Positions 12,483-35,358 of a DNA stretch of 50,591 nt are shown one piece after another. The position numbers and the translations under genes were made by a program. Location of the stretch: assembly GCA_019358945.1 (NCBI GenBank), contig JAHHIE010000048.1, forward strand, positions 1 through 50,591, written 5' to 3'. The DNA comes from Stenomitos rutilans HA7619-LM2. Its GTDB lineage: Bacteria > Cyanobacteriota > Cyanobacteriia > Leptolyngbyales > Leptolyngbyaceae. The first letter of the stretch is position 1. Every line of letters starts with the position of its first letter. The notes below the pieces were generated by a model. The model was not told where the DNA came from. It searched no databases and saw nothing but the letters and a program-made list of their open reading frames with translations.

Positions 12483-12962
12483 ATGGTACATCCCTGGCAG
12501 CAATCGATGGTGATGCAACACAGTCAGCGGTTGTACCGTAGCTTTCAGCATTGGCTCGATCGCCCTCTATTAACCGTAGACGATGCCCCTACAACGATCG
12601 CCCATGCCCTCTTTCACGCACCATTCGTCCTCGTCTCTCATGGCACAGAACTCGATCCCATCTTGAACTACGGCAACCATCAAGCGCTGAAACTGTGGCA
12701 AATGGACTGGACACAGTTCACCCAAACGCCCTCGCGCCTCACTGCAGAACTGATCGAGCGAGAGGAGCGCGATCGTCTCCTCGCTCAAGCCAAAACCCAG
12801 GGCTATATCAACGACTACAAAGGCATCCGCATTTCCAGCACCGGACAACGCTTCTGGATTCAGGATGTAATCATTTGGGACGTACTGGATGAGCACAACC
12901 AGCGATGCGGACAAGCGGCGATGTTCGAGCGATGGAAGTTTTTGGAAGAGGATGAGGGATGA
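12483..12962 (+). CDS. MEKHLA-domain protein (PAS-like)
   Basis: This 159-residue protein fits the MEKHLA domain, a PAS-like fold named for a plant transcription-factor domain and common in cyanobacteria. Supporting blocks are the PFVLVSHGTELDPILNYGNHQALKLW segment in the middle, EREERDRLLAQAKTQGYINDYKGIRIS, and the C-terminal RFWIQDVIIWDVLDE. The function is unknown; a sensor or small-ligand role is guessed from the PAS-like fold. The stop codon lies within heptamer repeats (GATGAGG units), so the final EEDEG residues probably derive from the repeat. The gene stands alone. Confidence 0.82.
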   Translation: MVHPWQQSMVMQHSQRLYRSFQHWLDRPLLTVDDAPTTIAHALFHAPFVLVSHGTELDPILNYGNHQALKLWQMDWTQFTQTPSRLTAELIEREERDRLLAQAKTQGYINDYKGIRISSTGQRFWIQDVIIWDVLDEHNQRCGQAAMFERWKFLEEDEG

Positions 12963-13140
12963 GGGATGAAGGCTAAAGAAGTTGTTGGTTTTTAGTTTTT
13001 AGAAAAAGGCTGACGGCTGACCACTGTAGCTTGCTTCCCGCAGGGTTAGCTGACCGCTTCACATGACTCCTAAAGTCTCTTTTCCAACTCAAAACTCTCT
13101 AGATTGTCAGCGCAGAGCACTACTCAAAACTCAAAACTCT
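12951..13140. repeat. Heptamer repeats at the end of the MEKHLA gene and in the following gap
   Basis: GATGAGG units fill 12951-12971 and overlap the MEKHLA stop codon. The gap then has AAGGCTAAAGAAGTTGTTGG, also found near 48538, and ends with ACTCAAA units at 13122-13140. The remaining text is pyrimidine-rich spacer, and small frames found here are repeat-derived. Confidence 0.72.
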
Positions 13141-13186
13141 CCCTGCTACCCCTGCTGCCCCGCCTCCCCTGCCCCCTTCCGCCTCC

Positions 13187-15262: not shown

Positions 15263-16162
15263 ATGGTTTCTTTGACTCAAGAACAGTTGCGTCAGTTTCA
15301 CGAAGATGGGTTTTTGATCGTCGAAAACCTGCTGGATGAAGCTCTGGTCGATCATCTAGTGGGGCGAGTTGAACCGCTGTTTTCGGGCGAGTTTGAAACG
15401 GGCGTTTATCCCGATGAGTGGTACTGGAATCCATCGTTGGGGTTACCGGGCGCATCGGGTCAAATGAGCAACGTTTGGAAGAGCGATCGTACCTTTGCGT
15501 CAGTGGTACTGGCGGCTAAAGTTGGCAAAATTGCGGCGGCTCTGGGGCAATGGAGCGGCTCTCGTCTTTTGAGCGACAGCTTATGGATGAAACCCTACGG
15601 AGCCACCGAAACCACGCTCCATCAAGATTCCATGTATTCCTTTTACCACACCCCCCAGAAGCTAGTCACCTGCTGGATTGCGCTCAGCCACGCGGTTCGG
15701 GGAGCAAGCACCATTGAGTATGTGCGGGGTTCTCACCGTTGGGTGCTATCGGATGCGGTGCCAGAGTTTCATGCACCCAGTCGCAGCTATCGCTGGGAGA
15801 TGGAGCAGGCCGCTAAGCGATCGGGCGTTGGAGCACCAGACGTACTGGAACTAGAGATGAAACCAGGCAGTTGTGCGTTCCACCACGGTCATATGTGGCA
15901 CGGCTCCGGCAAGAACCAGATGCTGGGCGTTATCCGACGCAGCCTGGTAATGGCGTATATTCCGGCAGAATCTCGCTTTAAGCCTACAGGCGCTTATGTG
16001 CCAGGAGGCTACATTGCCGGACGCTACAAGCGCTTTGGTGATGACACGATGGACGAAAGCTTTTTCCCGATCGTGTGGCAAGAAGATGGCTACCGCACTC
16101 CCTTCCTAGCGGGATATTGTGCGGATGCGCTGACAGAACAGCCTCCGCTTGTGCTGGCTTAA
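15263..16162 (+). CDS. Phytanoyl-CoA dioxygenase (PhyH) family Fe(II)/2-oxoglutarate oxygenase, intact metal triad
   Basis: The protein has the PhyH family N-terminus (FHEDGFLIVENLLDEALVDHL) and a facial triad: His120 and Asp122 in TTLHQDSMYSF, with the distal His in GHMWHGSGKNQ. The Arg that binds 2-oxoglutarate is probably in IRRSLVMAYI. PhyH enzymes hydroxylate carbon next to a carboxyl or act on small metabolites; the substrate is unknown. The 299 residues and the double-stranded beta-helix pattern fit. It is the first of two tandem paralogues with a 114-base gap, so they may be co-transcribed, although heptamer repeats fill the gap. Confidence 0.9.
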   Translation: MVSLTQEQLRQFHEDGFLIVENLLDEALVDHLVGRVEPLFSGEFETGVYPDEWYWNPSLGLPGASGQMSNVWKSDRTFASVVLAAKVGKIAAALGQWSGSRLLSDSLWMKPYGATETTLHQDSMYSFYHTPQKLVTCWIALSHAVRGASTIEYVRGSHRWVLSDAVPEFHAPSRSYRWEMEQAAKRSGVGAPDVLELEMKPGSCAFHHGHMWHGSGKNQMLGVIRRSLVMAYIPAESRFKPTGAYVPGGYIAGRYKRFGDDTMDESFFPIVWQEDGYRTPFLAGYCADALTEQPPLVLA

Positions 16163-16205
16163 AGCGTATGGGTGTGGATAGATTACAGCCGTTTTCATTT
16201 GCATT

Positions 16206-16240
16206 CACCCCACCCCACACCCTACACCCCATACTCATAT
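16206..16240. repeat. CCCCACA-type heptamer repeats between the PhyH paralogues
   Basis: Four period-seven units (CACCCCA, CCCCACA, CCCTACA, CCCCATA) fill 16206-16233. The same unit occurs on the other strand as GGGGTGT upstream of chlB at 27933-27967. Confidence 0.75.
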
Positions 16241-16276
16241 TCATAGGACTGTGGCTTCCAAATCAGTAACCGCTGT

Positions 16277-17164
16277 ATGACACATGTGCCCGTTCAGCTT
16301 AGCGACGAACAAATCCATCAGTTTCGAGAAGACGGATTTTTGATTCTAGAGAAGTTTTTGGATCTGGCGGTGGTCGATCGCATTGACGCTCGGCTCGATC
16401 CGCTCTTTGCCACTCAGTTTGAGACGGGTGTTTACCCCGATGAATGGCACGGACGACCCGGATTGAGTCAGCCAACGGCGACCCGCCAGATGTGCGGTAT
16501 GTGGCGCTGCGATCGGACGGTGGCTAGCCTTTCGCTCTCAGCAGAAGTGGCTCGGCTGAATGCAACGCTGGCAGGCTGGAGCGGGGCGCGGTTGGCAACC
16601 GATAGCTGCTGGATTAAACCGCCCGGTGCGCCGGAAGTATCGTTCCATCGCAACAACACGGCGTTTGCCTGCATCAATCCCACGTCTGTGGTGACCTGCT
16701 GGATTGCCCTCAGCGATGGAACGCCTTCAGCCGCGCCATTAGAGGTTGTTCCTGGTTCGCATCAATGGCGTTGCTCCGACCAATTTCGCTTTCTTCATGC
16801 GCCTAAAGAGGATTATCGGCAATTGCTCTGGACGGCAGCAGAGGAAGCAGGGATTGACCAGCCTGAAAGTCTAGCGATAGCTATTCCAGCAGGGAGCTGC
16901 GTTTTTCTAGATGGCAATCTGTGGCACGGTTCGGGGAGAAACATCACCCCTGACCAGACCCGTCGAAGTTTCGCCATTACGACGCTGCCAGCCGAGGCTC
17001 AGTTTGACCCTGCTGGAACAGGCCCAGGCTACATTTTTAGCCGTTACCGTCGTATAGGCCAGACGGAGATGGATGAGAGCTTTTTTCCTATCCTTTGGAC
17101 ACAGGCGGGCGATCGTACATCCATGCTTGCAGAGTATTGCAACGATGCACTGGTCAATGCCTGA
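16277..17164 (+). CDS. PhyH-family paralogue with a changed metal ligand
   Basis: It aligns along its whole length with the upstream gene: same N-terminus (FREDGFLILEKFLDLAVVDR), same FETGVYPDEW block, same WHGSG distal His and Arg (RRSFAI). At the expected HxD ligand the codons give H-R-N (residues 124-126, EVSFHRNNTAF), so the Asp is Asn. In Fe/2-oxoglutarate enzymes that acid holds the iron; Asn could weaken binding. Family members with the acid replaced by Ala or Gly are the halogenases; Asn is not that type. The protein may be a catalytically altered partner, a regulator or a decaying duplicate. The reading frame is intact for 295 residues. Both genes are about the same size. Confidence 0.86.
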   Translation: MTHVPVQLSDEQIHQFREDGFLILEKFLDLAVVDRIDARLDPLFATQFETGVYPDEWHGRPGLSQPTATRQMCGMWRCDRTVASLSLSAEVARLNATLAGWSGARLATDSCWIKPPGAPEVSFHRNNTAFACINPTSVVTCWIALSDGTPSAAPLEVVPGSHQWRCSDQFRFLHAPKEDYRQLLWTAAEEAGIDQPESLAIAIPAGSCVFLDGNLWHGSGRNITPDQTRRSFAITTLPAEAQFDPAGTGPGYIFSRYRRIGQTEMDESFFPILWTQAGDRTSMLAEYCNDALVNA

Positions 17165-17589: not shown

Positions 17590-17853
17590 ATGACTATTGA
17601 ATCACGACTAGAAACGATTGATGAGCGGCTTGCTCAATTAGTAGTTATTGCAGGTGAGCTAGTCAGAGCGTCAGTGCATCAGCGTGAAAGCATTGAAGGA
17701 CTGGCCTCAGGGATGGGGCAACTGATAGAGTCTAATACTGAATTCAGAATGGAGCTGGCTGAACTGAAAGCAACGACTCAAAAGCAGGCTGAAACAGCAG
17801 GGCTTCAGCAGCAAATGATTGAGCAGTTAATTCATCAGAAAGAAGCACCGTAA
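17590..17853 (+). CDS. Small coiled-coil hypothetical protein
   Basis: This 87-residue frame begins MTIESRLETIDERLAQLVVI and keeps a heptad-like pattern of Leu, Ile and Val for most of its length (for example LATTQKQAETAGLQQQMIEQ near the end), so a parallel coiled coil is likely. Similar small coiled-coil proteins are common in cyanobacteria. I know no function. No signal peptide is seen. The ATG follows ACGATCGCGGC with no strong ribosome-binding site. It ends 16 bases before the end of the large minus-strand gene. Confidence 0.65.
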   Translation: MTIESRLETIDERLAQLVVIAGELVRASVHQRESIEGLASGMGQLIESNTEFRMELAELKATTQKQAETAGLQQQMIEQLIHQKEAP

Positions 17854-17869
17854 AGGCAGGTTGCCGTCT

Positions 17870-20800
17870 CTACTTCTCTGACACCACCAGGCTTGAGGAG
17901 GCCGATCGCCCAAATTCCTCTGGGGCATATTCCAGATGAGCTTCGGCACCGGGGTAGAGGAATGTGCCTGGAGTGACTGAGCGGACGAGGTAGTGCAGGG
18001 TGTACACGCCGGGGTCGAGTTTATCACCGAAGGCAACGACGCGATCGTGGTAGATGGTTTGGTAGCCTAACTGCCAGCTATCGCCCTGCGCTTGAAAGTA
18101 GGGCGTGGTCGTCTGGAAGCTGTTATCGACGGCTTCAAACCCTGCGGGTAGTGGATCAGTCACCACCACATGATCGACGGGATGATCGGTAATGATTTCC
18201 AGCCCAATATCGTAGACCTGCCCGACGGAGACGGTGAGCGGATCGGGTGCGTATAGCCCTGTTTTGTACAGCACCTTGTCTTCGTTGGCGGGACGAATGG
18301 TGCGGGTGACGCGCAAGCCATTCAATCTACCGGGTTGGTTGCCCTGAAGCCGGTAGCGGTAGGCCACCAGATAGTGCAAGATGCCCTGACCTGTCTTTTT
18401 GAGGGTCAGGTCGTTGCGATCGCGCGGAAGATCTGCCATCTTCACCGATACATCTGCACCAGGGGTACGGTAGCCTTCAAACTTAGCGGTACTGAGCGTT
18501 TTGCCTGCCAAGGTTGCCGTTGCCTCAAAGCTGGGTGGCGTGGGCTGAAGCTTGCTGTATTCAACTAAAGCCGTCAGTGCTTCCGCGTTGTCGTGAGTGC
18601 CCTGCCAGGTACCGTTACGTCGCTGCGAAAGAAGACCTTTGAGTAAGCGATCGAGGTCTTCAGACTTGGCATTTTGAGCAATGAAGAGCCGTAACGACTG
18701 AGCCTGAGCAGTCGTTGGCGAATTCAGCCACCGCCAGTTAGGAGGCAGATTGATAGTGGCGTTGCGTCCCGTCTGGTAAATGGTTTCCTGAAGCTGGCTC
18801 ACCATCCCTTTGGCTTCTTGCTGCCACTCTGGGAATTGGGCCAGGTACCGCGCGAGTTTGATCTGGCTAACCGGATCAAGCTGGTTGCGCTGGCTGTAAA
18901 GGTCGGAGAGGAAGTCATTGCGTCGATCGCCCAGCGCTGCCAAAGCTATCAACGTTTCCAGCCGTACCTGATTTTTGCAGAGGGCTTCTTTGCAGTAGTC
19001 GTACTGTCCAGGGTCGGCAAGGAGTTTTTTGAGGTAGGGGGTTAGGGGAGTTTTGAGTTTTGAGTTTTGAGTTTTGAGTTCTGAGTTGGGGAAGGCGCGA
19101 TCGGTGAGGGCGATCGCCTGGGCGGCGTAGGGGGTGACGAAGGGGTCGGATGTCTCCTGACTGGGATAGGAGGCGAAACCACCATCGGGCTTTTGAAGGG
19201 CTTGCAGGCGATCGAGTGCTTGGGTTGCCTGTTGTTTTGAATCAAAGTCAGCAAACGCTTGACCGTAGGTTTGGGCGAGGGTTTGCAGGTTAGCGGCGAT
19301 CGTCAGTTGGCTGGCGGTAGGTTCCAGGAAGGGGAGATCGTTTTCGTCTAACACCTGTTTAGCGGGAGCAGATAGCGTCGGCATCAGGCTGCTGGCAAGG
19401 GAAAGATCCAGTCCTCCGGCATCGGGTGCCACGTTTTTATCCACATTCAATGGAATGGTGGCTTGATCGGTGGTCGTTCCCGCTTCTACCACCTGTTCCG
19501 TCACGTCGAGCGGTTTGATGTCGAGCGGCACTTCAAAGGCATCGGTGGCATTCCCAAGCTGGGTGGTAAATTTCACTTTTGCGTCGCCTGTAGACTGCAC
19601 GACCACTGGGAAGCGATAGGCACTGGTGCCCGTTGCTGCCTGCGCCTGCTGCTGACCAGAGGAGTTGTCCAGCTTCAGCGGATCGGTGACGGAGCCGTTA
19701 ACCGCCAGATTGCCCGTTTGTCCAGCCGTATTTGTAACCGAAACGCCTGCCTGGAAGCGATCGCCCGGACGCACAAACTGCGGTAACAGGGGGTTCGCAA
19801 TCAGCGGTTTCGTCGTGACAAAGGTGGTGTCACTATTCCCGCCGAAATGCAAGTTCTCATCGGTGGCAACTGCCATGACGCGCCAGGTTGTGAGGTCATC
19901 TGGCAGCTTAAATTTGACCGTCGCGTTGCCGATCGCGTCTGTTTTCACTGAGCCGTTGTAATATGCCAGAGCTTTAAAGTCGGTGCGAATGCGAGTGCCG
20001 CCTGCGCCATTAGAAGCACCTCCCCCATAGCCCCACCCTTTTTCGAGAGGAGATGCCTGCGGTTGCAGGACGACATCGGGTCGGTTGTCGCTCAAACGAA
20101 TGGAAACAGGCTGTTCGGCATAGACCGTCTTCACCAGGTCAGGCGGACGGTAGCCGCTGAGTTGCAGCACCGCTTCATTCACCACCATGAGCGTCACCTG
20201 TCCTTTGGTAGCCTGTCCCTGGTTCGTGACTCGAAGTTGAATGGTTTGTTCGTCATCTGGTTGAAGGCTGGGAGTAACAGTCGTTTCAACGTTGAGATAT
20301 TGAGAACCCAAGTCAGTTTCAAACGGCGCAAAGCCAATGCGGACGAGTTTATCTAAACTGCCGGGTTCTACCTGCTCCAGCGGTTTGCCCTGGCGCACCA
20401 GCACGGCTTCGACCGCCGCATTGGGTAGCATCTCAGGTGTCACCTGGAACTGGACACTGGGCGCACTGCCCTGCACTTTAGTCAGGGTTTTGTAGAGGGT
20501 ATCATGGCGCACGATCGCAAAGTACAGTTCACCGTCGGGATAGGGTGATTGAATCAGCGCAGTTGCCGTTTCGCCCACTTGATAGTGCTTCTTGTCGAGC
20601 TTGATTTCCAGACGATTATTGCGGTAGCGACTGCCCCAACTGGCGGCGGTATCCCCTGTTGCCCAAAGCTGCACATCCGTCGCGCTGACTGGGTTGTTGT
20701 CTCCAAACGTCGCACGCACGCGGTATGACCCGGAAGTCGTCGGTTTCAAATTAGCGCTTTGTGGACTGGCATCTGACTGGACATCAGCCGTAGCAACGGT

Positions 20801-23689
20801 TTTGTGTTCCACCTGATCTTGCTGGGTGCGGCTGCCTTCCACCAGCTTCGACACGCGGCTGTAGGTCATCTGCTGGAGCTCCAGATGCACTTTTTGATTC
20901 AAGATTGGGGTGCCAGCGGGGTCAGTGACAATGACCTTGACCGGAAAATCCTGCCCTGCCGTTGCCACAAAATCGCTTTGTAGCCCAATCAGCTTGTCGG
21001 TTGGCAGCGCCAAAAAGGTTTTGGAGTCGGCAACCGAAAGATTCGACACATCTGAGACCTGAGCATCGACGCGATAGGTCATGGGATAAGGCAGATCTTT
21101 GTCGATCGCCACGGTTTGACTACTATCCCCGGTTTTGCTCAACACCTGATTAGTTTGCAGCACGTCCGTCGTCACCGTAGGCGCTTCTTCGGGCCAGAAC
21201 CACTGTTGCCCAAACGCAAAGCCATCCCAGCCTTTGGGTGCAAATTCTGCTTGCTTGCGCGTGACGTAGTATTCGACTTTGCCACCTTCTACAGGGGAGC
21301 CAAAGAGGTAATTGCTCTGGGTCTTGGCGGTAATGATCTGACCGACAGAGGCGATCGAGGAAAAGTTTTGAGTTTCAAGTGTTGAGTTTTGAGTTGAAGC
21401 ACTGGGTTCAGCGGCTTTGCCGCCTTCTAAAGTCAACGCGACTTTAAAGTTCGGGGGTTTGAATTCGGCAAGGCGAAATTCACCTGCAATTTCAACCTCG
21501 TTCGCGTTCTTGGCGAGAATGGCGTAATAGCCGAGGGGTTGATTTTTGCCGATCGCCCATTCTTTAGAAAACGTGCCAAATTCGTTGGTAGTTTCGGTCC
21601 CCAGACTAGTTTCCTGACCGTTGGAGTCGCGCAGGGTGAGGGTGTAACGGGCGTTTTTGTCTTGTTTCAATGCGCCGTTTTGCAAATAGTAAGCCGCGCC
21701 CGTGAACCAGGCCGTTTCGCCCGGTTGGTAGAGCTGGCGATCGGAAAAGATAATGCCTCGTGAATCTGGCTTACTGCTCTGCCACCCGGCATCCACGCCG
21801 TACTCATAAGCACCGCTGTACTCCAGAGTGCGTGTAAACGCCCAGTCCTTGCCTTCTTGCGCCACAACCAGCAGCTTCGGTGCATCGGTAAAGCGCCCTG
21901 CTCCGCCCATGCAGGTCTGCAAGGCTTTACTGTCGAGTAACAGAGTCCCGGTCTTATCGGTTTTACCTGTAGCACAGGCACTAGGTTCAGGCTGATCTTT
22001 TGCGTCTAGCTTCGATTGGTAGATTTGCACCGTCGCATTGGCAACCGCTGCACCATCCGATAGATGGCTCACGCGTACCATGCCAGCTTCGGGGAACCAT
22101 TGGGCAAAGACACCCAGGTTAGTCAGTTGCACCAAACCATATGTAGTCGGTTCGCGCCATTTCTGCTGATTGCCATCCTGGTATTGATTGGTACGCGCCT
22201 GTACACCGTAGGCCAGCATTCCGGTTGGGCCACCTAACTGTTTTTGCAGCGGTACGGGGAGGTCGATCGCCTGGTTCTTTTGCCCCTTCATAGACGTACT
22301 CTTCCAGGCTGAGGAACTGGGCAATAACCCCTTGCCGTTGTCGCTGGGAAAGGCAGAATCGGCATAGACCAGATCCGTGGGCTGCACAACGGTAAAGGCC
22401 GTTTTGTAGCTAGACAGGTTGACCGTCGAAAGATTGAGTTGAAGGTTTTTGCCCGTTGGAAAGATATTCAGCCCAGAGGGTGCCCACAGGTCAGCCGCGA
22501 CATCGCCCGTGGCGTAGTCGATCGTCATTGGCTTGCCGAGTGTTTGCCCATACTTATCTTTAAGGTCAGCACCCAACTTCACGGTGTACTTTGTCGCAGG
22601 GTCGAGTGCCCAGGGGTTAAGGGCAACAATGCGATCGCCCTCGTAGACGCGCACTAAGGGAACATCTTTTTTAGGGGCAGGCTCGACGGTAATCTGGGCG
22701 ATCGCAGCTTCTGCATCCACCTCGTTGTTGAACTCTAACTGCCCGCTGCCATTCACAAAGCGTCCCGGAGTGCCGCCAGCATCGGGTTGTCCGTAATAGC
22801 TAATTTTCTGAAATGCTAGCGGTGAATAGGTTTCAACCTGACTCGCAAACACACTCTCACTCGCCACATTACCTTTGGCAGACATCAATCCTGACGTGAT
22901 TTGCAAGCGATAGCGAGTGGCTTTTGCGAGAGACTGTTGGGGTTCGATCGTGTAGATCCAGTCACGCGCAGATGGATCAAACTGTTCGGTGGGTGATTTT
23001 GTTTCAGGGTATTCTTCTCTGACTTTCTCTTCACTCTTCTCCAGCGCCACATGGAGTCCAACCCCGTTCTGGTCGTTACCTGGTGTCAGCTTTACATGGT
23101 CTTTGAGCGAGGTTAAATCGAGTTCTGTATTGGATGTAAATTTGAGAACGGGCTTGAGATCGAGTGGCTCTACCGCTTCGCCTTGCGGTGCGCCTGCAAC
23201 GGGTGTACCAGGCAAGTTGGTAAGCTTAAGCGGTTCGGTATTGAACGTCCAGGCAATATCTTGACCCAGGCGATGCTGCTTGAGGTCTGCCAAACCTGCT
23301 TTGAGCGTCACCTGCACGCGGGTGGCTTTGGGAATGGCTTGATCACCCTGAAACCCGACCATACGCGGTGTCAAAAAGCGCCACTGACCAGGCAGCGGGG
23401 GCACCAGCTCAAACTTCTTCAGCAAATCTTGTGGTTCTTTACTCTCCAGGCTTTCAACGGGAAGCAGCGGTTCCTTAAAGCGAACGCGAATTTGAGCGGT
23501 AGTAGCGGCCTCGCCCGTAGGGCTAATCTGCTCAATCCAGTCGGGTAGCTTAGGGGCGGCTAGAGCAGCAACAGAGGGCTGGGGGTTTGCGATCGGGGTA
23601 ATGTTCGCAACGCTACAGCCTTTGATGGCAAGAGCAACGCATAATGCTAGCACAACAAACCACGGCTTGATGCCATTGCGACTTCTCAT
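17870..23689 (-). CDS. Alpha-2-macroglobulin family lipoprotein without thioester motif
   Basis: A large protein (about 1939 residues). The start taken is the ATG at 23687-23689, giving a normal lipoprotein signal (MRSRNGIKPWFVVLALCVAL, then lipobox IKGC). An earlier GTG at 23743 would add 18 residues. Domains read as MG-type beta-sandwich modules, an MG2-like DRQLYQPGETAWF near residue 650, the A2M block (TTWRVMAVATDENLHFGG) near 1270 and an alpha-helical TED-like region after about 1440. The usual bacterial CxEQ thioester is absent; the matching place reads DLPFLEPTASQ. The protein is probably an outer-surface or periplasmic protease trap without covalent bonding. No pbpC is next to it. Two heptamer repeat stretches are in frame inside it (19051-19087, 21365-21399). 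Confidence 0.88.
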   Translation of the reverse strand: MRSRNGIKPWFVVLALCVALAIKGCSVANITPIANPQPSVAALAAPKLPDWIEQISPTGEAATTAQIRVRFKEPLLPVESLESKEPQDLLKKFELVPPLPGQWRFLTPRMVGFQGDQAIPKATRVQVTLKAGLADLKQHRLGQDIAWTFNTEPLKLTNLPGTPVAGAPQGEAVEPLDLKPVLKFTSNTELDLTSLKDHVKLTPGNDQNGVGLHVALEKSEEKVREEYPETKSPTEQFDPSARDWIYTIEPQQSLAKATRYRLQITSGLMSAKGNVASESVFASQVETYSPLAFQKISYYGQPDAGGTPGRFVNGSGQLEFNNEVDAEAAIAQITVEPAPKKDVPLVRVYEGDRIVALNPWALDPATKYTVKLGADLKDKYGQTLGKPMTIDYATGDVAADLWAPSGLNIFPTGKNLQLNLSTVNLSSYKTAFTVVQPTDLVYADSAFPSDNGKGLLPSSSAWKSTSMKGQKNQAIDLPVPLQKQLGGPTGMLAYGVQARTNQYQDGNQQKWREPTTYGLVQLTNLGVFAQWFPEAGMVRVSHLSDGAAVANATVQIYQSKLDAKDQPEPSACATGKTDKTGTLLLDSKALQTCMGGAGRFTDAPKLLVVAQEGKDWAFTRTLEYSGAYEYGVDAGWQSSKPDSRGIIFSDRQLYQPGETAWFTGAAYYLQNGALKQDKNARYTLTLRDSNGQETSLGTETTNEFGTFSKEWAIGKNQPLGYYAILAKNANEVEIAGEFRLAEFKPPNFKVALTLEGGKAAEPSASTQNSTLETQNFSSIASVGQIITAKTQSNYLFGSPVEGGKVEYYVTRKQAEFAPKGWDGFAFGQQWFWPEEAPTVTTDVLQTNQVLSKTGDSSQTVAIDKDLPYPMTYRVDAQVSDVSNLSVADSKTFLALPTDKLIGLQSDFVATAGQDFPVKVIVTDPAGTPILNQKVHLELQQMTYSRVSKLVEGSRTQQDQVEHKTVATADVQSDASPQSANLKPTTSGSYRVRATFGDNNPVSATDVQLWATGDTAASWGSRYRNNRLEIKLDKKHYQVGETATALIQSPYPDGELYFAIVRHDTLYKTLTKVQGSAPSVQFQVTPEMLPNAAVEAVLVRQGKPLEQVEPGSLDKLVRIGFAPFETDLGSQYLNVETTVTPSLQPDDEQTIQLRVTNQGQATKGQVTLMVVNEAVLQLSGYRPPDLVKTVYAEQPVSIRLSDNRPDVVLQPQASPLEKGWGYGGGASNGAGGTRIRTDFKALAYYNGSVKTDAIGNATVKFKLPDDLTTWRVMAVATDENLHFGGNSDTTFVTTKPLIANPLLPQFVRPGDRFQAGVSVTNTAGQTGNLAVNGSVTDPLKLDNSSGQQQAQAATGTSAYRFPVVVQSTGDAKVKFTTQLGNATDAFEVPLDIKPLDVTEQVVEAGTTTDQATIPLNVDKNVAPDAGGLDLSLASSLMPTLSAPAKQVLDENDLPFLEPTASQLTIAANLQTLAQTYGQAFADFDSKQQATQALDRLQALQKPDGGFASYPSQETSDPFVTPYAAQAIALTDRAFPNSELKTQNSKLKTPLTPYLKKLLADPGQYDYCKEALCKNQVRLETLIALAALGDRRNDFLSDLYSQRNQLDPVSQIKLARYLAQFPEWQQEAKGMVSQLQETIYQTGRNATINLPPNWRWLNSPTTAQAQSLRLFIAQNAKSEDLDRLLKGLLSQRRNGTWQGTHDNAEALTALVEYSKLQPTPPSFEATATLAGKTLSTAKFEGYRTPGADVSVKMADLPRDRNDLTLKKTGQGILHYLVAYRYRLQGNQPGRLNGLRVTRTIRPANEDKVLYKTGLYAPDPLTVSVGQVYDIGLEIITDHPVDHVVVTDPLPAGFEAVDNSFQTTTPYFQAQGDSWQLGYQTIYHDRVVAFGDKLDPGVYTLHYLVRSVTPGTFLYPGAEAHLEYAPEEFGRSASSSLVVSEK
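19051..19087. repeat. TTTTGAG heptamer repeats inside the alpha-2-macroglobulin gene
   Basis: Five period-seven units (four TTTTGAG and one TTCTGAG). On the coding strand they give the residues NSELKTQNSKLKT, without any stop and in frame. The position falls near residue 1540 in the TED-like helical region, probably a surface loop. Confidence 0.85.
21365..21399. repeat. GTTTTGA heptamer repeats inside the alpha-2-macroglobulin gene
   Basis: Five period-seven units, two of them diverged (GTTTCAA, GTGTTGA, GTTGAAG at the end). The coding strand reads SASTQNSTLETQN in frame near residue 770. It is the second insertion of the same family in one gene. Confidence 0.78.
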
Positions 23690-23743
23690 CACCACTTTCC
23701 CCACTGTGTCTCCGATCGCGGTCGGCACATCGCCTGCCACCAC

Positions 23744-24112
23744 ATCATTCCTACCCGCAAGGATGGGGCAATTCCCCGTATTGGCTATAAATCTTTACTA
23801 TCAGGGCTGGCGAGGAACCGTAGTAATGCCACTATCACTCCGGTTCCTGGTGAAATAGAAAAGACTCGTCCTAGCAAAGAAGCAGGAGCTTAGTTGCGCG
23901 ATCGATCACGGAAGCCAGGGTTAAGGCTTAAGGCATAGGGTTGCAGCACGTCAGTTCAGTTAAAATACGGGTAAGTAGCCGAACGCAATTCACCTGGCTC
24001 ACTCGTGGTAGCAAGAGAAGCGAGTAGTGATTGCGGGTTGCTTACTTAAAGCAGCATTCTACTAACTTGAAACTAGTGGCAAGTTCTAACCTGTGATTAG
24101 GAGGTTCGCAAG
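23744..24112. other. Gap before the Arg/Asp/Tyr-rich secreted protein gene
   Basis: About 370 bases with no gene I can support; the plus-strand frame at 23601-23858 is a shadow of the alpha-2-macroglobulin 5' end. A possible stem CACTCG/CGAGT lies near 24000-24029. AGGAGG at 24099-24104 is a strong ribosome-binding site for the next gene. Confidence 0.5.
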
Positions 24113-30821: not shown

Positions 30822-33011
30822 CTACCAATGGCTCACGACGCAACCCAGCGCTTCAAGGTCGAGATAATCGGCAGCAAAGGCTCGACGCAGCAATGGTGAA
30901 GGAATAAATTCGTCGTATTTTTGGAGTTTGGGCGCTTCCTCTTCAGTCAGTAACTCGTCTGCGCTCATCCGGCGATCGCTCAGGGACTTGATTTCGTGAT
31001 ACAAGCTCACCGTGCTGCATTTACCCATATTGACCACCAGAAAGTAGGGCGATCGTCCCATCACGCCTTTAATTTTCAGCGTGTCTCGGCAGTGCAGGCG
31101 CAAGAAGCGTTCCAGAGTGCGAACGGCGATCGTCCCTGCCCAAGGCAGAATGCAACAGGCGTTCCCTTCGAGCGGAAAGAGGTAGCTACTCTCTAGCCCT
31201 TCTTTCTTGGCGAGTTTGCGTGCCTCTGCTAAGCGCGCCCTGGCCCCAGATTGCAAATAAGGATACTCGATGTCTTCTAGCAATGCCTGTCGCATGCGTT
31301 GCAGTACGCGGGTATGGATATTGCCGCTGCTACCCCGCCAGGAAACGCTAGAGGTGCCGATCGCGGGTTTCACTTGAAGCACTTTGCGACGGCTGTTAAC
31401 TTCCGTGACTTCCCAGATGCGTCCTGCCAAGGAGAGGCGATCGCCCACACCGGGCGGCACAACGACGGTACCCAGTTCGATGCCATCGCTCCAAACCGCA
31501 TATTCTTCACTATCGGGAAAAATCGCGTAGAACTTAAAGTTTTTCACCAGACGTTCTGCGGCTAACCCAACAATCAGGCCGTTTTCTGGGGTGCGCTGAA
31601 TGTGGTCTAGCTCAATCCAATGACGCAGTACCTGACGGAAATCATCCTGTGAGAGCGATCGAAAGGGCGGCAGGGTGAGAATGCGCTGTGCCAGAGCTGC
31701 GGGGGAGAGTTCACCCAGTGCGACGAGCGTACTCATGGTTTGCTGATACAGCAGGCTGAGAGGGTAACGCAGAGGGGCAATCGGCTCAATCCACTTTTCT
31801 TCTAAATAAAGCTGAATGACAGCAATGCACTGAAGCAACTGCCAAGGAATGCGTTCAGGTAACGATTCGCCGCCTGTGGGGTTGTCTTCAGCGCACACAA
31901 AGCGCATGTCAGCCGGACTGCCTCGCCTGCCTGATCGCCCCAGACGCTGCAAAAAGCTAGCAACGGATGGTGGTGCTTCAAGCTGAATCACGCGATCGAG
32001 CTGTCCCAAATCAATACCCATCTCAAACGTCACCGTAGCAGCGGTAACGGTGGGACTCGATGGGTCACGCATGGCGTTTTCAGCGGCTTCTCGCAGGGAT
32101 GCTGCAATGCTGCCGTGGTGGACATGATACACATCAGGAAAGCCTTTTGCCTGAGCGATCTGCCGCAGAGACGCGATGACGTTTTCGGTTTCAGAGCGTC
32201 CGTTGGCAAAAATCAGGCATTTACGGGAATGACTTTGCTCGAATAAGTGATGCTGATAGGGGCTGAAGGCGGCATCTCGCGTATCGCCTCTTGCTCGCAC
32301 GGTGAGGCTGGAGGTGTAGAAGTGTTCAAGCGCGAGTTGAATGGTGCGGGGTGCAGCAGGTAAATGCGGGGTGATGACGGGACGATCGGTACCCGATCGC
32401 AGCCAGTCCTCCGCCATTGCATAGTCGCCAAGCGTTGCCGATAGCCCAATGCGGCGCGGTTGGTTTTGGGTGATCTGAGCAAGCCGGGAGAGCTGACATA
32501 GGATCTGTGCCCCGCGATCGGAACCGATAAAAGCATGAATTTCATCAATGATGACAAAGCGCAACGCTCCAAAGAGACGATGCAATTCCGTATGCTTATT
32601 AATCAGGAGACTTTCTAGCGATTCGGGCGTAATTTGCAGAATGCCTTGGGGCTGCTTCAGTAAATTCGTTTTGCGGCTTTGCTTCACATCGCCGTGCCAC
32701 GCCCAAACCGGGATATCGGCTTGTTTCAAAAGGTCGGTGAGGCGATCGAACTGATCATTAATCAACGCCTTGATTGGTCCAATGTACATGGCACCAATGG
32801 TTGTTGGCGGCTCGTTATGCAGCAGCGTCAGCACGGGTAGAAAGGCGGCTTCTGTTTTACCCGATGCGGTGCCTGCTGCAATGAGCAAGTGCGCGTCGGC
32901 TTTAAACAGCACGCGACAGGCTTCTACCTGTACTGGACGTAGATCAGTCCACCCCTCACTGTAGATATACTCCTGAATAAACGGTGCAAGATCATGATAA
33001 GGAGAGGTCAT
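30822..33011 (-). CDS. Lhr-like DEAD/DEAH-box (DEIH) superfamily 2 helicase
   Basis: A 729-residue helicase with the SF2 motifs: Q motif RPVQ near residue 28, Walker A GTASGKTEA at 47-55, DEIHAF for motif II, SATLGD for motif III, and QRLGRSGRRG for motif VI. A C-terminal part of about 300 residues is the winged-helix and Lhr-like core (for example LPPFRSLSQDDFRQVLRHWI and the following WEVTEVNSRRKVLQ region). This group of helicases is found beside a DUF2791 ATPase and TerB-related proteins in phage-defence or DNA-processing operons, as I recall. Here the ATPase is 985 bases upstream, split off by a GlsB-type gene. Start is ATG at 33009-33011. Confidence 0.88.
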   Translation of the reverse strand: MTSPYHDLAPFIQEYIYSEGWTDLRPVQVEACRVLFKADAHLLIAAGTASGKTEAAFLPVLTLLHNEPPTTIGAMYIGPIKALINDQFDRLTDLLKQADIPVWAWHGDVKQSRKTNLLKQPQGILQITPESLESLLINKHTELHRLFGALRFVIIDEIHAFIGSDRGAQILCQLSRLAQITQNQPRRIGLSATLGDYAMAEDWLRSGTDRPVITPHLPAAPRTIQLALEHFYTSSLTVRARGDTRDAAFSPYQHHLFEQSHSRKCLIFANGRSETENVIASLRQIAQAKGFPDVYHVHHGSIAASLREAAENAMRDPSSPTVTAATVTFEMGIDLGQLDRVIQLEAPPSVASFLQRLGRSGRRGSPADMRFVCAEDNPTGGESLPERIPWQLLQCIAVIQLYLEEKWIEPIAPLRYPLSLLYQQTMSTLVALGELSPAALAQRILTLPPFRSLSQDDFRQVLRHWIELDHIQRTPENGLIVGLAAERLVKNFKFYAIFPDSEEYAVWSDGIELGTVVVPPGVGDRLSLAGRIWEVTEVNSRRKVLQVKPAIGTSSVSWRGSSGNIHTRVLQRMRQALLEDIEYPYLQSGARARLAEARKLAKKEGLESSYLFPLEGNACCILPWAGTIAVRTLERFLRLHCRDTLKIKGVMGRSPYFLVVNMGKCSTVSLYHEIKSLSDRRMSADELLTEEEAPKLQKYDEFIPSPLLRRAFAADYLDLEALGCVVSHW

Positions 33012-33605
33012 ATCAAGTGTTAAGAACTACCTTTGAAATCGCTCGGTCTGTTATGTGAAACACATGGCTTTGGTGATGATCGTGACATGTCAAGGCATGG
33101 GTAAGTGCTGTATCTTTGCAAGCATTGACGTGCAGCTTCTAGCCTTTATGTCGGTTATGAAGCTGCGTTTAACTAAACTTAGTATTCTGTCGTATAGTAG
33201 CCTTGAATCATGCGTAAAAAGCAGGCTGTGTTTGATTTAGTCAGCCGTCAGCTGTCAGCCGTCAGCTTGGAGTTTAAAGCTGATAGCTGATAGCTGATAG
33301 CTAATGGCTAAAGACTAAGCCAGGAGCCTTTTCATAAAGCAAAGAGGGCCGCTGTAGTAGGGCTTTAGTGGCCCTGTAACCAGTGCGTTGTTGTCCTGAT
33401 GCACATGCCTAAACGATCTTTCAATGGAGGGGATTGTGGCAGCGGAGCCAAAACAGATCGATAAGATGCCATAAGATAATTAAATTTTTTGGTAGCCATA
33501 AGTTTTTTGTGGGGTGAGCAGTATACTTTATACCAGTGTGAGTTTAGTAAGCCTTAATCGTTACTTGCTAAGCATCTGTTTTTCGGTTTTTAGGAGAGTC
33601 GAGAT
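33012..33605. other. Gap with heptamer blocks between the helicase and the GlsB-type gene
   Basis: About 590 bases. GTCAGCC/GTCAGCT units at 33240-33267 and TGATAGC units at 33281-33308 are two heptamer blocks. A stem GGGCC/GGCCC spans about 33347-33376. A 61-codon frame at 33055-33240 has no family support. Ribosome-binding text AGGAGAG lies eight bases before the GlsB-type ATG. Confidence 0.6.
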
Positions 33606-33875
33606 ATGAATTTGATTGCATGGATTGTTTTAGGATTGATTGCGGGCGCGATCGCAAAGGCGATTTATCCTGGTACTCAGGGTGGTGGTATTCTGGCTAC
33701 GCTTGCGTTGGGCGTGGTTGGTGCTTTTATTGGTGGCACATTGTTCACGTTATTAACAACAGGAACGCTTGCTTTAGCGGCTCCAGGCTTTAGCATTGGT
33801 GGCATCGTTGTTGCAATTATTGGCGCAATCGTTGCGATCTTCCTGTGGGGCTTAATTACCCGTCGTGCGGCTTAG
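33606..33875 (+). CDS. GlsB/YeaQ/YmgE-family stress-response membrane protein
   Basis: An 89-residue Gly-, Ala- and Ile-rich protein with three membrane segments: MNLIAWIVLGLIAGAIAKAI, ILATLALGVVGAFIGGTLFT and GGIVVAIIGAIVAIFLWGLI. It fits the transglycosylase-associated/GlsB family, whose members are linked to envelope stress in many bacteria, with no settled biochemical role. AGGAGAG upstream of the ATG is a good ribosome-binding site. It lies on the plus strand between the minus-strand ATPase and helicase genes and so breaks what would be their operon. Confidence 0.9.
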   Translation: MNLIAWIVLGLIAGAIAKAIYPGTQGGGILATLALGVVGAFIGGTLFTLLTTGTLALAAPGFSIGGIVVAIIGAIVAIFLWGLITRRAA

Positions 33876-33891
33876 AATGTAACGCGCTTGT

Positions 33892-33920
33892 AGGGGTAAA
33901 GCATTCAGCGATCGCCATTT
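33892..33920. repeat. Half copy of the GTAGGG palindrome class
   Basis: GTAGGGGTAAAGCATTCAGC follows the end of the GlsB-type gene, starting at about 33892. It shares the GTAGGGG-AAGCA pattern with the left half of the element at 17452. The matching right arm is missing. Confidence 0.45.
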
Positions 33921-33996
33921 AGTTGCAATGCCAAAGGCTTCCTAAGTGTGCTTTGTCCCTGCAGCAATTATCTCTATGACTCCTGTTGCCGTTCCT

Positions 33997-35358
33997 CTAG
34001 ACAGTAAATTCAGCAAACTCATTTGTTTCTTCGATCGAAGCATTGCTTTGCATCTTCGATTGAGGAAATGTGTGGCTTTGCATCAACTGATTAAGCGTCA
34101 TTTTAGGATGCTGCTGCAAGACGTTGAGGAGACCCATAAAATCGCGCACCACTTCACCCGGCGTGAGTAATGTGTCTGCACCGACTCGACTGGTCACAGC
34201 GCCTAAGAAGTCCTGTAGCTCTCGTTGCGTCAGTCGCGATGTGCTATCGTGATGCGCCGCGTGAATGTCTGACAGGCGTTGCAATAACCCCAAGATATCG
34301 TCCTTTCCAAGTGGCTCTAGCCAAAGAGCAGGGCCAGACACATCTTCAGTACCCACCGTAACAAAACGACTTTTAGCGGTACGACGCTGCCACGCTGGGT
34401 CACTGTATAGCCCTCGGCGCGGATCTTCCAGTAGTTGTGGGGTGCCTCCGATCACCGTGCCCAAGAAGCCGACTCTGCCCTGCATGGCATCGTTGAACAT
34501 CGCCAGCAGCTTATCGTAGTTGTTTTGGCGGGCGATCGCGGTGTTGATTTTGTACAGATGAATGGCCTCATCCAAAACGATAAGCAAGCCCTTATAGCCA
34601 ATATCGGCCACAAACCGGGCAAAAAGTTTGATGTAGTCATACCAGGTTTCATCGTCAATGATGACGCGTACCCCTAGTGCGGCCCGTGCCTCCGTTTTGG
34701 TAGGAAATTCGCCACGCAGCCAGCGCAGTGCGGCTGTTTTCTTGCTGTCGTCATCGGTGCGATAGCCCGACCAGTAAGCAATGATGACATTTGCAAACTC
34801 AAACCCGTTCACCAGATCGGCGACATCGCTCACCACTTCGCGGATTTTAGCTTCTACGTAACCATCAAAGCCGTCATCATTCGGTTTTTTACCTGTTTCC
34901 TGAGCAACCTGCGTTTGAATGCCTGCAATCCAGCGCTCCAGGATGATCGTGAGTGCACCCCCATCGGGACGGCTCTTGGTTGCCAAATTATGCATCAGTT
35001 CGCGGTAGGTGGCAACGCCTGCCCCATTGGCACCAGCCAACCGTCGCTCTGGTGTGAGATCGGCATCGGCCACAACAAAGCCCTGTTCCATCGCGTAGTT
35101 GCGCAGCAATTGCAAGGTGAAGCTTTTGCCTGCTCCATAGCGCCCTACCACAAACCGAAAGGCGGCTCCACCCGCTGCAACGTTATCCAGATCTTGCAGA
35201 AGGGCAAGCACTTCCCGTTCACGCCCCACGGCGATGTGCTCTAGCCCCACGCGCGGTACCACACCCGCACTGAGGGCATTAATCAGCGCAGTCGAGATTC
35301 GTTTGGACAGTTTGGGCGGGGACATAGGCGTTAAAGGGTTCATTTGTACCCGGTGCAT
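33997..35358 (-). CDS. BrxD-like P-loop ATPase (DUF2791 family)
   Basis: A 453-residue ATP-binding protein with Walker A VVGRYGAGKSF (residues 71-80) and Walker B GLLIVLDEAIHLYK near 250. The overall sequence is the DUF2791 type: ISTALINALSAGVVPRVGLE at the start and ERWIAGIQTQVAQETGKKPN in the middle. DUF2791 proteins include BrxD of type 2 BREX systems and the ATPases beside Lhr-like helicases and TerB proteins. The other BREX genes (pglX, pglZ, brxC) are not in this window. The start is an ATG at 35356-35358; a second in-frame ATG is five codons on. It shares strand with the helicase 985 bases downstream but is separated by the GlsB-type gene. Confidence 0.85.
   Translation of the reverse strand: MHRVQMNPLTPMSPPKLSKRISTALINALSAGVVPRVGLEHIAVGREREVLALLQDLDNVAAGGAAFRFVVGRYGAGKSFTLQLLRNYAMEQGFVVADADLTPERRLAGANGAGVATYRELMHNLATKSRPDGGALTIILERWIAGIQTQVAQETGKKPNDDGFDGYVEAKIREVVSDVADLVNGFEFANVIIAYWSGYRTDDDSKKTAALRWLRGEFPTKTEARAALGVRVIIDDETWYDYIKLFARFVADIGYKGLLIVLDEAIHLYKINTAIARQNNYDKLLAMFNDAMQGRVGFLGTVIGGTPQLLEDPRRGLYSDPAWQRRTAKSRFVTVGTEDVSGPALWLEPLGKDDILGLLQRLSDIHAAHHDSTSRLTQRELQDFLGAVTSRVGADTLLTPGEVVRDFMGLLNVLQQHPKMTLNQLMQSHTFPQSKMQSNASIEETNEFAEFTV

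Follow-up and report, generated by a model that had tools for sequence, protein, structure and literature searches.

Here, we describe a heptamer repeat that is read as protein inside a cyanobacterial alpha-2-macroglobulin (A2M) gene. The window, that is the whole stretch of 50,591 nucleotides of Stenomitos rutilans HA7619-LM2 DNA that was analysed (contig JAHHIE010000048.1), holds this gene at positions 17870-23743 on the minus strand, as an intact open reading frame (ORF) of 1957 aa with a GTG start by mechanical calling. The protein matches MG2, A2M_BRD (the bait region), A2M, bMG10 and Big_5 above the Pfam cut-offs, with bMG3 and bMG5 falling under the curated ones. A search of the protein for the CxEQ thioester motif, which defines the thioester class, returned none, and with ten window proteins scanned, the ORFs tested on either side (PhyH and DUF4079) did not include a PBP1c-like partner. 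An Rfam scan of 17800-23800 gave no structured-RNA match at the gathering score. Elsewhere in the window, two neighbouring PhyH-family dioxygenase genes lie at 15263-17164, and at 30822-35358 a DEAD-box helicase (Lhr-like winged helix) adjoins a BrxC/BrxD-like ATPase (Pfam PF10923, 537 bits), a pair that may be part of a defence module.

Within the A2M gene, positions 19048-19087 (minus strand) carry a block of heptamers, here called site A, that is of AACTCAA type on the coding strand and encodes NSELKTQNSKLKT at aa 1553-1565. On the forward strand the layout is GAG, four copies of TTTTGAG (19051-19078), one TTCTGAG (19079-19085) and a final TT, and the residues are read from minus-strand codons 19087-19049 within the intact 1957-aa frame. 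The original prediction of five TTTTGAG-type units at 19051-19087 being read in frame is borne out in the form of four exact units and one variant; its end point of 19087 is correct for the residues, but the heptamers themselves stop at 19085. The block is confirmed as a real array. Tandem Repeats Finder gives it the top score (73) among 40 rows for the window, with period 7, 5.7 copies and 96% matches. TTTTGAG occurs 36 times in the window versus 10.55 expected (100 shuffles peak at 19), and the best lag-7 score in the A2M coding sequence (CDS) is 27 of 28, while none of 5000 codon-order shuffles exceeded 20.

The placement of the block in a TED-like region also holds as far as the fold is concerned. 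An AlphaFold2 model of aa 1430-1815 (18299-19456, minus strand), made with nine sequences and having a mean pLDDT of 81, shows a helical TED-like domain and, after it, strands; the top PDB match of the model by fold is the Salmonella A2M 4u48 (E 1.4e-9); a sequence search found no PDB relative at E <= 0.01. In the numbering of the modelled segment, the host loop of site A lies between helices 108-121 and 127-147, and the repeat residues (local 124-136) form part of a turn (122-126) plus the opening turns of the TED helix 127-147. A second, degenerate block of AACTCAA type (site B; 21364-21395, minus strand) encodes STQNSTLETQNF (TQNSTLETQNF) at aa 783-794. In a poorer model (mean pLDDT 70), site B (local 144-155) falls mostly within a stretch of pLDDT <50 (140-152) between two beta strands. 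In six species of the genus, counting the present one, its loop keeps a length of 22-23 aa while residues are substituted; the period-7 threshold is reached in three of them.

Seven is coprime to three, so the peptide encoded by an AACTCAA array is (LKTQNSK)n in any frame; its three frames read NSKLKTQ, TQNSKLK and LKTQNSK, and all are free of stops. TTTTGAG has a TGA in each of its three frames, and for this unit the C-rich reading alone is therefore viable inside genes. Among classified tracts outside ORFs, frames without a stop number 547 of 963 in the C-rich sense, compared with 224 of 963 in the G-rich sense. Inside ORFs of >=150 aa, as called mechanically, lie 125 of 552 tracts (74 C-rich in sense, 36 G-rich and 15 undecided). 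This stop filter alone is enough to explain the orientation of the A2M block. Neither the stop-free AACTCAA reading nor the second block in the gene formed part of the original prediction, and nor did the genome-wide pattern to which we return below.

We compared 34 A2M reading frames, two of which (L027 and L029) stop short of site A. The loop is flanked by conserved anchors, YAAQAIALADRA and YLKKLLADPGQY. Residues identical to those of site A occur in L003 (genome G005) only, encoded by the same AACTCAA period-7 DNA. In the same genus, L002, L005 and L006 have TCACTCC-type arrays, that of L002 at the same codons, and L004 is repeat-free. By eye, an apparent decayed version is found in L075, from the seventh species of the genus (G004), which lies outside the 34 frames and whose genome has the A2M gene only in fragments. 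Other genera show an AACTCAA composite (L012), degenerate heptamers (L009) and a 28-nt perfect palindrome (L016). The last (GTAGAG...CTCTAC; G010:C1:1816607-1816634) stands in frame in the same TED loop, and its pattern occurs at three places in G010. In A2M trees computed with both sites masked (one of 20 of the 34 frames, a second of 9), L002 is the sister of the present gene (L001) and L003 adjoins both, so the unit at the same codons was either switched at least once or gained twice.

A conserved element of the fold, whose residues would persist in orthologues without period-7 DNA, is ruled out, as the residues are missing from the compared orthologues except L003, which shares the DNA repeat as well. 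The alignment of relatives that had been proposed for pinpointing the insertion thus shows the residues to be unconserved, but the exact insertion cannot be located, the loop being rewritten as a whole between species. In the six species of the genus the site A loop measures 18, 20, 18, 15, 17 and 20 aa, with 18 aa here versus 15 in the repeat-free congener L004, and in other genera the median is 13 aa (range 7-33), most being shorter than here. These differences are whole codons and not multiples of seven codons. The idea that flanking changes kept the frame despite the 35 bases therefore stands in so far as only whole codons separate the loop from its repeat-free orthologues: an array whose length is not divisible by three must have been accompanied by some change other than in heptamers. 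A clean insertion is not demonstrable; the A2M orthologues compared include no empty site with intact flanks, and the insertion step itself is not visible among them.

In A2M the tracts are restricted to two loops. At a threshold of 15/21 lag-7 matches, 13 of 13 period-7 tracts in the 34 A2M frames (188 kb) fall at aa 779-789 (5 tracts) or aa 1551-1564 (8 tracts), a fourteenth match, in L013, being a run of N that was excluded. Control lags of 5, 8, 10, 11 and 13 gave 0-2 tracts each beyond this run-of-N artefact. The unit at the site agrees with the stock of its genome in G000 (the present genome), G005 and G006, disagrees in G001 and is uninformative in G003. We reject as a general rule that the unit at the site follows the genome stock: G001 has TCCTCAC at site A, yet genome-wide it holds 108 AACTCAA versus 2 TCACTCC triplets.

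Heptamer repeats are abundant well beyond this gene. In 450 kb of the genome there are 153 exact 7-base tandem doublets versus 27.5 expected at equal base frequencies, the corresponding figures being 176 versus 110 for 6 bases, 12 versus 6.9 for 8 bases and 11 versus 1.7 for 9 bases. Four genome samples were scanned for lag-7 tracts: 849,591 bp of G000 (window included) gave 215, and 400 kb each of G019, G006 and G010 gave 38, 121 and 178; in the same samples lags 5, 8, 10, 11 and 13 gave 1-20 tracts and lag 6 gave 15-26. Across the genome, TTTTGAGTTTTGAG has 328 matches and AACTCAA x3 has 80, overlapping positions counted. A reversed-pattern control is uninformative, as TTTTGAG written backwards gives the same array shifted in phase, and AACTCAA reads alike in both directions. 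Thus, a period-7 excess and the same unit at many loci, the two marks of the cyanobacterial heptameric tandem repeats (STRR/LSSR class), are both present.

Moreover, adjacent tracts resemble the two arms of a dispersed repeat. Among neighbours <200 nt apart in the four samples with both arms classified, a G-rich arm is followed by a C-rich one in 109 cases and the reverse holds in 1, with 10 GG and 10 CC pairs; 28 pairs with an undecided arm were excluded. Because the reverse complement of G-then-C is again G-then-C, the arrangement is inverted and has no strand preference, and for the genome-wide class it has the two-armed (convergent) form described in Xanthomonas. By eye, an apparent case lies in the window at 12949-13180 (no strand assigned), where a GGATGAG-type G-rich arm is followed by a C-rich arm of AACTCAA/CTCCCTG type. 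Base pairing from arm to arm was considered as the cause of the order and is not supported, since a pair's own arms exceed swapped arms in only 14 of 32 cases in G000, 15 of 30 in G006 and 19 of 44 in G010; in G019 they are stronger in 2 of 3 pairs, which are too few to judge.

At site A of the present genome the C-rich arm stands alone, so the two-armed form is not found here, whereas the G019 orthologue has both arms. The G019 insert is one of many dispersed copies, ~73-81% alignable over about 70-80 nt, with 81 matches at E <= 10 (self, overlaps and both strands counted), and 20 places were read, self included. The element they represent (L012/L173, L174-L192) is ~70 nt long and consists of (TTYTNAG)3-4, a variable spacer and (AACTYAA)4. 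In 17 of the 20 copies the strand opposite the A2M sense strand gives the more stable RNA fold, apparently, as judged by eye, through G-U pairs.

The original claim that such repeats can enter protein-coding genes is upheld by period-7 tracts in frame in A2M and in other genes. Of the 35 strong tracts (22/28) in a 450,591-bp sample of the genome, 12 lie within long ORFs: A2M, a doubtful 139-aa ORF, LeuS (twice), LpxB, a MacB/FtsX permease, a class-III aminotransferase, RsmB, a PLP decarboxylase, a radical SAM protein, Era and HSP90 (HtpG), with Pfam naming covering nine proteins besides A2M and the doubtful ORF. We followed Era, LeuS, HtpG and RsmB through 30 orthologues each. These four genes were picked for their tracts in this genome and are not a measure of how common such loops are; the choice fixes which loop is filled in this genome but has no bearing on where tracts lie in other genera. 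At least two of Era, LeuS and HtpG are essential in most bacteria.

In each of these proteins the tracts keep to the same places. All 9 Era tracts are in one loop (two, both in L121 of G010, were placed by reading since the frame is broken in the assembly), all 15 LeuS tracts are in two loops (6 and 9), all 9 HtpG tracts are in one region and all 10 RsmB tracts are in one loop. These counts include a weak Era tract (L120, 16/21) and an GCGATCGC-like LeuS tract (L156) that is perhaps not a comparable heptamer repeat. Pooled with A2M, 56 tracts were found in 154 CDS (397,764 bp), all within seven loops. Twenty codon-order shuffles of the 154 CDS gave 0-2 tracts each, and lags 4, 5, 8, 10, 11, 13 and 16 gave 0-5; lags 6, 9, 12, 14 and 15 yield 14-50 tracts and are not controls, 14 being a harmonic of 7 and the others multiples of three. 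G-rich-to-C-rich composites stand in frame in LeuS, HtpG and RsmB, and in Era by reading the loop. In G010, the Era frame (L121) is broken inside the heptamer loop and LeuS is split into several frames, which are probably assembly errors, as several genes are affected.

This genus contributes 40 of the 56 tracts, and the remaining 16 are spread over seven genomes, one from each of seven other genera, and frequently consist of other units. In 6 of the 7 loops the genus is longer than the median elsewhere: 26-60 aa versus 7 in Era, 33-61 versus 19.5 in RsmB, 25-53 versus 16 in loop 1 of LeuS (filled in this genus only), 41-52 versus 35 in the HtpG region, and in A2M 15-20 versus 13 at site A and 22-23 versus 7 at site B. 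Loop 2 of LeuS is not clearly longer (13-33 aa versus a median of 14). In most loops, single members of other genera overlap the range of the genus, reaching 53 aa in HtpG and 28 at site B.

In light of this pattern, what might be the origin of the A2M block? We consider it probable that heptamer repeats from the dispersed stock get into genes and persist only where the frame is kept and the loop is permissive. The block at site A would represent a single arm of the repeat DNA, built of heptamers, that is scattered over the genomes of this lineage, and such DNA would occasionally enter genes, by copying or slippage. Persistence would then require that the net length change preserve the frame, that the strand read be free of stops, and that the residues land in a loop or helix start tolerant of changes in length and sequence. 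The TED loop at aa 1551-1564 would be such a permissive place, holding different heptamers or none according to species. We infer, from conservation and models, that tolerance rather than target preference is the cause of the shared positions. As for the residues of site A, they most likely have no specific function and are carried as a tolerated passenger.

The heptamer DNA may have been copied in from a genomic pool, and its vocabulary bears on this. Other species contribute 20 units from their A2M, Era and LeuS tracts (16 gene copies); 11 of these occur among the 44 units of intergenic doublets in the present genome, while letter-shuffled units give a mean of 0.6 (maximum 4) and heptamers drawn from the same genes a mean of 1.0 (maximum 6). 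This overlap favours a common pool or a common mutational bias over chance local seeds. The TCCTCAC array at site A of G001, with its different genomic stock, speaks against a simple pool, and the data as a whole fit copying-in and local slippage alike. A bolder version, which we offer tentatively, is that a two-armed element (G-rich arm, spacer and C-rich arm, nearly always in this order) moves or copies around these genomes, and that this source, independent of frame because its unit length is coprime to the codon, has time and again given rise to inserts of as many as about 50 residues, placed in the same loops of essential proteins, the A2M block being a one-armed case.

The chief competitor, which we regard as somewhat unlikely, is a local origin, with slippage acting on a chance 7-base duplication in a fast-evolving loop and nothing being imported. 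The genome-wide excess of 7-base doublets would suit it, as would mosaic arrays, which repeated slippage could generate, and Mrazek et al. proposed that 7 nt is perhaps the length of polymerase contact, favouring slippage (cited in MacGregor et al. 2015; PMC4679880, from part of its text). However, the agreement of the coding units with the intergenic vocabulary goes far beyond chance, even if a shared mutational bias could also bring this about, entire G-rich-to-C-rich composites stand in frame in LeuS, Era, HtpG and RsmB, and the G019 insert at site A belongs to many dispersed copies.

Entry from dispersed repeats must also be weighed against one ancient insertion per loop, followed by turnover of units and many losses with no repeated entry, a history we judge unlikely. 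Within the genus a single gain suffices for site A on the tree, and the site B loop, constant at 22-23 aa in six species that differ by substitution, behaves there as if of single origin. Across genera, site A carries tracts in g1, g13 and g14, which are separated by lineages without one (three gains and one loss by hand count on the tree of 20 of the 34 frames), the units often differ between genera, and in G010 the same loop holds an unrelated 28-nt palindrome.

A selected role for the peptide in A2M, as a linker or a helix cap, appears very improbable. The model does put the residues at the start of a TED helix, and an identical AACTCAA core is retained in L001 and L003, whose A2M genes otherwise differ at 16% of bases, but the residues, the length and the unit vary among the closest species, one congener being repeat-free. 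Phase variation, in which gain or loss of one heptamer would switch off the A2M C-terminus, seems very unlikely as well: an added 7 nt would indeed end the protein at 1611 aa and an added 14 nt at 1571 aa, but the perfect units number only four, five congeners have the whole gene in frame (open frames of 1946-1978 aa), and similar tracts occur in Era, LeuS and HtpG.

The interest of the A2M block lies in the general pattern that it exposes. If heptamer repeats do enter genes in the manner proposed, they amount to a countable natural experiment in the conversion of non-coding repeat DNA to protein, and the loops of Era, LeuS, HtpG and RsmB, with different heptamers by genus, become a map of insertion tolerance in essential proteins. 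The order of 109 to 1, with arms no better matched than swapped ones in three of four samples, would constrain models of heptamer origin. For annotators, period-7 peptides such as (LKTQNSK)n can derive from repeats.

For cyanobacteria, Mazel reportedly described STRR in 1990, Vioque is said to have found STRR in RNase P RNA in 1997, and small dispersed repeats were reportedly treated by Elhai in 2008. In the open PMC literature, most subscription papers lying outside its scope, we found no orthologue-level report of the same loops of conserved proteins being filled by different heptamers across lineages, and no near-absolute two-arm order across many cyanobacterial unit families. Intragenic heptamers and convergent pairs as such are already in print, and the comparisons that follow draw on part of the text of each source. 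The G-rich heptamers of Xanthomonas and Nostoc sp. PCC 7120 (Rehm et al. 2015; PMC4692102) are, like ours, dispersed and mostly intergenic arrays, the Nostoc repeats studied being intergenic in 68% of cases and the remainder not. Two convergent arrays were counted in 70 and 75 cases in Xanthomonas, whose pairs show the same G-rich-then-C-rich order, and Nostoc has few pairs. In the parts of that work used here there is one unit family per genome, whereas here the order is common to many families, and its reported comparisons concern repeat presence in two Xanthomonas genomes and do not include orthologous protein loops.

Replacement of one heptamer by another at a fixed site also has a precedent in RNA. 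In the P6b stem-loop of the Nostoc tRNA-Leu intron, built of the 7-nt motifs NNTGAGT or TDNGATT, one motif class has repeatedly and independently been swapped for the other at one site, which recalls the differing units at site A, but the host is a self-splicing intron RNA whose shifts are reported, in the portion cited, as unidirectional, and here it is a coding loop (PMC4476775).

Among repeats that enter proteins, the Rickettsia palindromic elements (Ogata et al. 2000, 2002, via PMC10969869, in part) insert in frame in unrelated metabolic genes, and the fold is predicted to accommodate them. In-frame insertion in unrelated conserved genes is likewise seen here, in A2M, LeuS, Era, HtpG, RsmB and others. 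The Rickettsia elements are ~150 bp long with a conserved peptide, whereas ours are 7-base units with no defined ends; a defined length, inverted ends and a conserved peptide are not found at the loci and in the species compared, across which units and peptides vary. Similar in reading are the TAACTGA heptamers of Beggiatoaceae and cyanobacteria (MacGregor et al. 2015; PMC4679880), which also occur within ORFs and of which one orientation has stops in all frames while the other reads through. As described in the sections drawn on here, TAACTGA lies mostly at protein edges, whereas the heptamers reported here occupy internal loops of conserved proteins in several genera, with differing units and two-armed composites.
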